Source of the DNA: Thiotrichales bacterium | GTDB lineage: Bacteria; Pseudomonadota; Gammaproteobacteria; HK1 | NCBI GenBank assembly: GCA_026709935.1 | Contig: JAPOSC010000025.1 | Location: 1 to 50,984, forward strand | Direction: 5' to 3' | Length of the DNA stretch: 50,984 nt | In this document: piece by piece, positions 41,240 to 45,039 of the stretch | Layout: every line of letters starts with the position of its first letter | Position numbering within the stretch: position 1 is the stretch's first letter | Translations under genes and position numbers: made by a program | Notes under the pieces: generated by a model | The model's input: only the letters and a program-made list of their open reading frames with translations | Told to the model about the DNA's origin: nothing | Database searches by the model: none

Positions 41240-41494
41240 ATGCCGGCCATGGATACGTCCCCCCAACCAATTTCCCCGCAAGCCGCCGCCCGGTACCGGG
41301 AACGCTGGGCAATCACCCGCGAGCGGCTCAACGAAGAGCTCCGGGCCACCTCCATGGAGACCAAACTTCATCAACTGGCCACCCTGATGCAGTCCGCCCG
41401 CGAGATGGGATGGTCCCAATCGCTCGACGACGAGGACGACATGGTGCGGGCGAGGTGGATGGCGCTTCGAAGGGCGATACTTGGCAAAGCGTAG
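41240..41494 (+). CDS. Small helical protein paired with a nucleotidyltransferase (84 aa)
   Basis: No family recognised. The chain is charged and helical (AARYRERWAITRERLNEELR, METKLHQLATLMQSAREMGW) with no membrane segment. Its last codons overlap the start of the nucleotidyltransferase by 14 bp. It may be the small partner of a two-gene module. The start may be 41240 or three codons later. Confidence 0.7.
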   Translation: MPAMDTSPQPISPQAAARYRERWAITRERLNEELRATSMETKLHQLATLMQSAREMGWSQSLDDEDDMVRARWMALRRAILGKA

Positions 41495-42113
41495 ATCAGC
41501 CGGTGGGCGACAAGACCCGCCGGTGCCGCTCGTCCAGGCCCTCGGCGCGGTGTCGGAATGGATCGAATCCGCCGCGGTCCCCGGCGCGATCATCGGCGGG
41601 GTCGCCGCCTCGGTGCTCGGACGACCACGGCTCACCCAGGACATCGACGTCCTCGTGACTCTCAACCGCCACGCATGGGCCCCATTTCTGGCCGCGGGTC
41701 GGGAATTCGGGTTCGTCCCCCGCATGAACGACGCCCTCGATTTCGCGGAGACAAGCCGCGTTCTGCTGGTCCTGCACCAGCCAAGCGGAATCCCGATCGA
41801 TGTCGTGTTCGGCGCTCTGCCGTTGGAAGACGAGATCGTCCGGGGCGCCAGGGGCGTGGAGGTCGCTGGCGTCCGCCTGCCGCTCCCGACCCCGGAGTCG
41901 ATCGTGGTCATGAAAGCGATCGCCCGGAGAGCCCGTGACATCGCCGACATCGAGGGGATTCTGGAAGTTCACGACCGACTCGACCTCGACTGGATTCGCA
42001 CTCGGCTGAACGAATTCGCACAGGCGCTTGGCCAGAAGGAGCTGCTTGACGAATTCAACAGCCTCGTGGTCCGAACCCGCCGGCGGGCTGGCCCGGACGG
42101 TTCCGTCGAATGA
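41481..42113 (+). CDS. Nucleotidyltransferase (AbiEii/MNT-like, 210 aa, TTG start)
   Basis: The polymerase-beta-type NTase signature is visible as IIGGVAASVLGRPRLTQDID: a GG pair and, after a gap, an Asp-x-Asp (TQDIDVLV), with a possible third acidic residue in IDVVF. Such proteins occur as toxins of the AbiE/MenT type, as antitoxins of HEPN-MNT systems, or as substrate-modifying transferases. The TTG at 41481 follows GAAGGG and overlaps the 84-aa gene. Later GTG starts would cut into the fold. No HEPN protein is adjacent. Confidence 0.78.
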   Translation: MAKRRSAGGRQDPPVPLVQALGAVSEWIESAAVPGAIIGGVAASVLGRPRLTQDIDVLVTLNRHAWAPFLAAGREFGFVPRMNDALDFAETSRVLLVLHQPSGIPIDVVFGALPLEDEIVRGARGVEVAGVRLPLPTPESIVVMKAIARRARDIADIEGILEVHDRLDLDWIRTRLNEFAQALGQKELLDEFNSLVVRTRRRAGPDGSVE

Positions 42114-43837: not shown

Positions 43838-44605
43838 TCACAGCCGGGGCGGCAGCTCTGCGGGCAGGTCGCCGCGGCGAAAGGTGAGGTCGCGCTGCGC
43901 GCGCATGGCCTGCTTCATGCTCTCGATGAACATGCCGGACGGTTCGAGCCGCGACCAGTCCGTCTCCGTGGCGGCGTAGCTCCCGTCCGTGTTGCGGTCC
44001 ACGGTCCACACGTCGACGCCGATGCCCACCCCCATCGACTGGTACTCGATGTTCATCTGCACGGTCCAGTACGCGGCGAAGATCGCCTCCCGCAGCGGCG
44101 GAAGGTAGCCCGGATCGGGCCAGAACACGTCCCAGATGAACCGGATGAAGGGGTCGGCGTTGATCTTCCCGGAGCCGGCGGTGACGTAGGGCAGGTTCTC
44201 GTTCAGACAGTAGATGGAGCCGTCGTAGTCCACGTGGCACAGGCGAAGACCGTCCGCGAACGGGATGCACGCCAGCGAGCAGGCCAGCGCGTTGTTCTCG
44301 GCGCCGGGGATGACGTATCGCGCTTTCTCCGCCATCTGGAGTGATGGCGTGACGACGACGCGGATCGCCTGCTCGATCGCAGGCAGGTGCTCGGCGTAGG
44401 GGCGGGCCTTGAGTTCGGCGTGGTGCGTCTCGAACACCGTGCGAATCTTCTGCCCGAGCGCGAGGGAGCCGCTGGACGCGACCAGGCTGTCGCCACCGAT
44501 GGGGGCAATCTTGAGCATCGGGAGCCCGACGTGCCCGACCGTGACCTGGCGATCGGCGGCAATCGCCGCGCCGTCGCTCGCCAGGATGCCGACGAGAACG
44601 GTCAC
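43838..44605 (-). CDS. Proteasome-like Ntn hydrolase (255 aa, GTG start)
   Basis: Starts M-TVLVGILASDGAAIAADRQ. If Met is removed, Thr1 is exposed, Asp lies at position 17 and Lys at 31, matching Thr1-Asp17-Lys33 of proteasome beta subunits. The following KIAPIGGDSLVASSGSLALG fits the S2-H1 region. HslV and Anbu differ clearly in sequence. Stand-alone proteasome-like peptidases are known in some bacteria but are poorly studied. The GTG overlaps the stop of the upstream winged-helix-like gene (GTGA), which fixes the start. Function and assembly are unknown. Confidence 0.75.
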   Translation of the reverse strand: MTVLVGILASDGAAIAADRQVTVGHVGLPMLKIAPIGGDSLVASSGSLALGQKIRTVFETHHAELKARPYAEHLPAIEQAIRVVVTPSLQMAEKARYVIPGAENNALACSLACIPFADGLRLCHVDYDGSIYCLNENLPYVTAGSGKINADPFIRFIWDVFWPDPGYLPPLREAIFAAYWTVQMNIEYQSMGVGIGVDVWTVDRNTDGSYAATETDWSRLEPSGMFIESMKQAMRAQRDLTFRRGDLPAELPPRL

Positions 44606-45039
44606 GGCTCGCGGAACACGCTGTTCACCGCAAACTGCGGATACGCGGCGTAGACGCTGCGCAACAGCTCCGGAAACGGCTTTCCCCTGACCCACGTCAC
44701 CACGCGGCCGAGGTACTCGGCAAGCCGCGGGTTGGCATCGCCCTCCCGCGCACGCAGGGCATTCCGGCCGGAGGCGGTGATCGTCCAGGTCTTCCAGCCT
44801 CGGTCCGGGTTCCACTCTCCTCTGACGTGACCCAGGCTCGCCATCTGGCGCAGATCGGCGTAGATCGCAGCATCGAACGGCCCGTAGTCGTAGGGCTGGA
44901 ACGCGTAGAAGCCCGCGCCGACCCGGTCACCGGCTTCCTGACCGAACAGGAACATCGCCTTCTGGATCTGGACGGGAGTCATTGCGCCGGGAGACTTCGA
45001 CAGCGCGAGCAGCAACCAGTCCTGACGTGCGAGCATCAT
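44602..45039 (-). CDS. YwgA/winged-helix-like protein coupled to the Ntn hydrolase (145 aa)
   Basis: RQDWLLLALSKSPGAMTPVQIQKAMFLF, then FYAFQPYDYGPFDAAIYADL and later TWTITASGRNAL, give a pattern of helix, wing and helix seen in YwgA-type and PadR-like small proteins. The DYGPF core is shared with Panacea/SocA-type antitoxin-like domains, but this is a weak resemblance. The gene ends in a GTGA overlap with the Ntn hydrolase, so the products probably form a unit: regulator, adaptor or antitoxin-like. MM start; either Met is possible. Confidence 0.7.
   Translation of the reverse strand: MMLARQDWLLLALSKSPGAMTPVQIQKAMFLFGQEAGDRVGAGFYAFQPYDYGPFDAAIYADLRQMASLGHVRGEWNPDRGWKTWTITASGRNALRAREGDANPRLAEYLGRVVTWVRGKPFPELLRSVYAAYPQFAVNSVFREP

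Follow-up and report, generated by a model that had tools for sequence, protein, structure and literature searches.

What might a proteasome-like hydrolase do when its gene is entered through a four-base overlap from the gene for a small winged-helix protein, and what is the small protein for? This question is raised by two genes on the minus strand of the window (the whole stretch of 50,984 nucleotides that was analysed). Our results suggest an undescribed two-gene switch around a proteasome-type enzyme. The preferred reading, to which we give a probability of roughly 45%, is that the pair is a toxin-antitoxin-like module, often carried as phage cargo, in which the small protein would restrain, and perhaps aim, a threonine hydrolase that matures constitutively. 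Of many proteasome homologs in bacteria only the sequence is known; a 2021 survey (Fuchs, Alva and Lupas, PMC8665760) described 22 such homologs, all uncharacterised, whose genomic context offered, by its account, no hint of their function. The features considered here are as follows.

43838..44605, minus strand: gene for the proteasome-like Ntn (N-terminal threonine) hydrolase, 255 aa, GTG start at 44605, stop ending at 43838
44602..45039, minus strand: gene for the small winged-helix protein with C-terminal helices, the upstream partner, 144-145 aa, stop included
44602..44605, minus strand: GTGA overlap of the small-protein stop codon and the hydrolase start codon
40789-41139: orphan HicB (PF05534)
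41481-42113: nucleotidyltransferase, DUF2204/AbiEii-like (PF09970, DUF2204), preceded by a small gene

The earlier note on this DNA had proposed that the hydrolase is read through a GTGA overlap from the small gene, and both genes do lie at that site on the minus strand. The small protein starts at 45039 or 45036, and its homologs favour 45036. In pairwise comparisons among members of the genus, the hydrolase had a dN/dS of 0.11-0.17 and the small protein one of 0.20-0.41; as judged from these ratios, the two genes are true coding sequences kept by purifying selection, with slower evolution in the hydrolase and faster evolution in its small partner. The orphan HicB and the nucleotidyltransferase with its small preceding gene, which had been named as neighbours, are also real, as indicated by the matches to PF05534 and PF09970. 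The gene that precedes the nucleotidyltransferase encodes 84 aa and overlaps it (41240-42113), and these two genes possibly form a separate toxin-antitoxin pair.

According to structure prediction and profile searches, the product of the downstream gene is a genuine proteasome-fold Ntn hydrolase. Its score of 23.4 bits against PF00227 (Pfam Proteasome) passes the cut-off of 22.4, and an alphaproteobacterial homolog falls slightly below it at 21.1 bits. The AlphaFold model, for which 12 homologs were supplied, has a pLDDT of 85 and a pTM of 0.84, and its top Foldseek matches are all proteasome subunits. When the model was superposed on the M. tuberculosis proteasome beta subunit with VIA-align (Z 19.7, 3.7 A, 212 residues aligned), the catalytic Thr1 of the latter coincided with residue 2 of the model. 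The best matches of the family profile among solved structures were likewise proteasome alpha and beta subunits (E 8e-8). The hydrolase modelled alone was therefore given the Ntn fold that had been expected, and no other fold was obtained. With the 20S beta subunits and the PF00227 family in general it shares the Ntn sandwich and the residues Thr1, Asp17, Lys33 and Gly47. Counted after the initiator Met, the catalytic set consists of Thr1, Asp17 and Lys31 (Lys33 in proteasome numbering), and the oxyanion-hole residue Gly45 (G46 with Met counted) corresponds to proteasome Gly47. None of the 17 intact hydrolases departs from the equivalents of Thr1, Asp17, Lys33 and Gly47, which bears out the claim that this set is retained; G144 and G146 (Met counted) are also invariant in all 17, and S145 is found in 16 of them. 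In the members that were read, the start codon is located immediately 5' of the Thr1 codon, so that ordinary removal of Met would suffice for maturation of the enzyme. The new homologs of the survey resemble it in having no propeptide, and its long C-terminal helix is as in Anbu.

This hydrolase stands outside the 20S beta equivalog and HslV. It scored only 20.1 bits against the 20S beta equivalog TIGR03634, for which the cut-off is 224. There was no match to the HslV model at E up to 1 and no HslU among the neighbouring ORFs of the pair, in agreement with the earlier placement of the enzyme outside HslV; a weak match to the PHROG "peptidase HslV family" (E 1.6e-5) was seen. The fold is equally close to Anbu (Z 18.6, VIA-align). 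No genes of an Anbu-type operon were noticed among the neighbours of the hydrolase, and its sequence profile is closest to the proteasome alpha and beta subunits. The proteasome-like family also includes a protein ligase, connectase (PMC8665760). Therefore, the hydrolase could be imagined to act as a transpeptidase, ligase or amidase on one specific partner. This might be the small protein itself, whose C-terminal motif YPxxxxNSVF is conserved in alpha- and gammaproteobacterial members. However, the connectase hallmarks (H1-H2 loss and a two-helix insertion) are absent from the model, in which two long helices occupy the place of H1/H2, and the same C-terminal motif is present in small proteins without a hydrolase, making this the least probable of the explanations that we considered.

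Further profile matches were also inspected. The weak ones in G1038 and G1145 (L062 and L063) and those at L036-L039 turned out to be different proteasome homologs, or HslV with HslU as its neighbour; none of them belongs to the pair's hydrolase family. A further proteasome-like family, which begins with MSIAVAVRKD or MTIAVAVRKG, has no small partner in the stretch that was read and is represented by L062 and L063 and by L003 in the same genome as the pair (contig C45, position ~83504). This family is distinct both from HslV and from the pair's hydrolase.

The small protein was modelled with a pLDDT of 92. The best PDB match of the model was DarG in the M. tuberculosis DarTG complex (7yk3, Foldseek E 1.9e-5), and its alignment with the DarG C-terminal domain gave a Z of 12.0 over 138 of 145 residues, that is, the DarT-binding fold of DarG extends over nearly the whole small protein. 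The remaining structural matches had Z of 9.6 or less and were mostly winged-helix regulators aligned over 75-100 residues. Among the PADLOC profiles, the N-terminal half of PDC-M19A matched the small protein with E 1.1e-13, over the first 126 of 294 positions only, and the other matches of the family were to the end of a type I specificity subunit model, to DarG and to LmuC; a homolog of the small protein (L015) matched the PADLOC DarG profile with E 4.2e-5. The structure match and the PADLOC profiles together relate the small protein to DarG, while its profile search of the PDB returned chance matches only. In contrast to DarG, no macrodomain was matched in the small protein, and the enzyme beside it is not DarT but a proteasome-fold hydrolase. 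The label "YwgA/Panacea-like" given by the earlier note could not be upheld, as the closest structure is the C-terminal domain of DarG, and Pfam showed no match to Panacea (DUF4065) at E up to 1.

Because of its winged helix, for which many PadR and MarR structures were matched, the small protein might instead be a PadR/MarR-type repressor of its own operon, with the hydrolase an orphan quality-control peptidase and no direct contact between the two. The stable chromosomal position of the pair in the genus and short similar blocks upstream of the small gene among genus members would agree with such autoregulation. By sequence, identity as PadR was rejected, with Pfam and NCBIfam scores under the cut-offs. 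Furthermore, the small-protein family is not consistently basic (pI 5.4-9.8), and the match to DarG, unlike most of those to PadR and MarR, spans nearly the whole protein. Autoregulation is therefore improbable in our judgement.

The link between the two genes is well supported by their distribution. In profile searches the pair was found on 18 contigs, which comprise 4 genomes of the genus from which this DNA comes, 3 alphaproteobacterial genomes and 11 IMG/VR contigs. In the 3 relatives from the genus, identity to the pair is 87-90% for the hydrolase and 63-69% for the small protein. The hydrolase is intact on 17 of the 18 contigs; in the remaining one (L023:6435-7102) its frame is broken close to the start and the small protein is intact. 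The small protein adjoins the hydrolase in all 17 intact cases, those from hydrolase-first searches included, and no hydrolase of this family without an adjacent small protein was found among the 18 contigs. The junction is -4 in most pairs and -1 to +5 in others, with +25 in L059. In one genome (G856) the two genes are convergent and still adjacent, which indicates that the linkage is independent of an operon; there, operon logic would not let a repressor encoded next to the promoter act on the hydrolase, a further point against autoregulation. The distances of the two proteins are correlated (Mantel r 0.75 with all 17 rows, and 0.61 with one row per genus, 14 rows), and in either case 0 of 20,000 permutations gave a value as high. 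The hydrolase family is rare: of 398 Proteobacteria genomes, the first profile detected it in 2. Searches with single protein sequences detected the genus only and nothing in annotated phages or plasmids, and the first viral scan gave no match; stepwise widening of the profile was needed to find the distant pairs. Since the arrangement recurs in distant genomes and on phage contigs, it is not due to chance. The co-occurrence search that had been proposed for the two families thus found the genes kept together.

The surroundings of the pair differ between the genus and other carriers. An orthologous gamma-glutamyltransferase gene is located near the pair in 4 of 4 carriers of the genus, suggesting that the pair is stable there, and this shared neighbour argues against mobility of the pair inside the genus. 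Elsewhere, on IMG/VR contigs, the pair follows a terminase gene (L041), directly precedes a portal gene (L058), follows a major head gene (L057), stands where a tail module ends, with the type I restriction genes HsdR and HsdS and an Abi_C gene next to it (L055), has genes for a SacI-like restriction enzyme and for a D12 methylase as neighbours (L054), or separates an integrase gene from a host gene (L042). In G310 it is adjoined by a HEPN-nucleotidyltransferase and a relaxase. The earlier suggestion of a conflict or defence neighbourhood is therefore only partly sustained: restriction genes, the HEPN-nucleotidyltransferase, the relaxase and prophages agree with it in other carriers, whereas the pair of the genus occupies a stable chromosomal region. 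As read from these neighbours, a conflict or defence region around the pair is only suggestive.

It is also possible to regard the pair as a phage function, namely a protease with its chaperone for virion maturation or host take-over, of which the chromosomal copies would be leftovers. As many as 11 of the 18 contigs come from IMG/VR, several with the pair beside terminase, portal or head genes, and one viral contig carries a small protein alone between portal and MuF-like head genes (L051:2140-2589), with a 1-base overlap with the latter. However, the position varies from phage to phage, which suggests cargo and not a morphogenesis gene. In addition, the contig with the pair after the major head gene has its own homolog of a head maturation protease, and chromosomal copies without nearby phage genes are under purifying selection. 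We consider a phage function very unlikely. As for the lone protein at L051, it could be a phage-carried antitoxin mimic.

Under the preferred reading, in which the pair is a module of the toxin-antitoxin or guarded-effector type, the small protein would be made first, would bind the hydrolase directly via its winged helix resembling the DarG C-terminal domain, and would keep the hydrolase inactive. Removal of Met would mature the propeptide-less hydrolase at once, for which reason a dedicated partner would be useful. If the small protein were displaced, degraded or diverted, for example in phage infection, the hydrolase would be freed and might then cleave a single protein, or a few, of the cell or the phage, so that growth or phage production would stop. 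In favour of this reading, the best structural match of the small protein is an antitoxin, DarG (the Z of 12.0 given above), whose C-terminal domain occludes the active site of DarT (PMC11481870), and relatives of the small protein are found beside other enzymes, such as in a DUF488 fusion and next to a dCTP deaminase. As in type II toxin-antitoxin systems, the small partner gene is upstream of, close to or overlapping with, and co-inherited with, the enzyme gene. Furthermore, small proteins occur without the hydrolase, but among the contigs found no intact hydrolase lacks a small protein beside it, an asymmetry that would be expected if the enzyme needs its partner. The correlated distances of the two proteins, their adjacency in G856 despite convergent orientation, the cargo-like variety of positions in phages and the slower evolution of the enzyme also count in favour. 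Against it, single proteasome beta subunits that lack a propeptide were reported to stay inactive before assembly (PMC8665760), so that an inhibitor would be less needed. Several members of the PF00227 family, though not all, assemble into rings and have peptidase activity, and the hydrolase may itself form an oligomer, perhaps a ring. Also against it, the pair of the genus is not on an obvious mobile element, the hydrolase was not found in annotated phages and plasmids, and the lone small proteins could simply have other partners. We know of no toxin-antitoxin system with a proteasome-fold toxin.

The main rival of this reading is that the small protein acts as an adaptor, which would recruit specific targets for the hydrolase and replace the missing AAA+ unfoldase, thereby making the pair a dedicated device for regulated proteolysis; autoregulation, phage maturation and ligation are all less likely than this. 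SocA, an antitoxin of the Panacea kind, serves as an adaptor in proteolysis by ClpXP (PMC8832971), and the faster evolution of the small protein relative to the enzyme is what a target-binding part might show. Moreover, the neighbourhoods that were read, not a systematic sample, showed no AAA+ gene adjoining a pair. On the other hand, DarG, the nearest structural relative, is an inhibitor and not an adaptor, and other relatives of the small protein are located beside non-proteolytic genes, so that an inhibitor or scaffold fits at least as well. Overall, we regard an adaptor as unlikely.

The absence of a described system with this pair, as stated in the earlier note, was supported by the open-licence PubMed Central papers that were searched. 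Likewise, no known anti-phage system covering both genes was recognised by PADLOC, which gave no match to the hydrolase at E up to 1. Compared with what the survey describes for its 22 homologs, of which it may be one, the hydrolase stands out by a conserved gene partner. Since this partner has the fold of an antitoxin domain, one family of proteasome homologs now has a function that can be tested and, if our reading is true, the proteasome fold would become a candidate for the effector of toxin-antitoxin or phage-defence modules.

Small proteins apart from the hydrolase were found at L020-L022, L024, L051, L032 and L069. Those at L020-L022 adjoin a phage terminase, the one at L032 is alone on a viral contig, and another viral contig without the hydrolase has two divergent small proteins in tandem (L024:6001-7220). 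In G091 the small domain is fused to DUF488, forming a candidate PADLOC PDC-M19 system. PDC-M19 consists of such a fusion together with PDC-M19B, and the small protein and the N-terminal domain of the fusion are homologs, but the effector there is DUF488 instead of a proteasome-like hydrolase. In G600 (L069:6016-8991) an anti-phage dCTP deaminase gene is followed by an overlapping, weakly DUF488-like gene (no Pfam match at E 0.001; BLAST E 1e-4 to L016) and then by the small protein. A gene for a Fic protein is also present near this locus. These varied neighbours and fusions indicate that the small domain has several partners, as Panacea has (PMC8832971). Like Panacea (DUF4065, SocA) in the PanAT systems, the small protein stands beside different effectors in two-gene loci; the differences are that Pfam DUF4065 is not matched and that the word "proteasome" is absent from the main text of PMC8832971. 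A broader proposal would be that a proteasome-type threonine hydrolase was recruited as the effector of a toxin-antitoxin or anti-phage module carried by prophages and chromosomes, that it is restrained by an antitoxin family that resembles the DarG C-terminal domain and is paired with several unrelated effectors, and that the lone small proteins of phages serve in counter-defence; this we put forward tentatively and hold to be somewhat doubtful. On plasmids of archaea and of Arthrobacter, more distant relatives of the small protein adjoin or overlap other genes. On two haloarchaeal plasmids (L081 and L082), they overlap an upstream gene for a 245-aa helix-turn-helix protein that is TrmB-like by eye.
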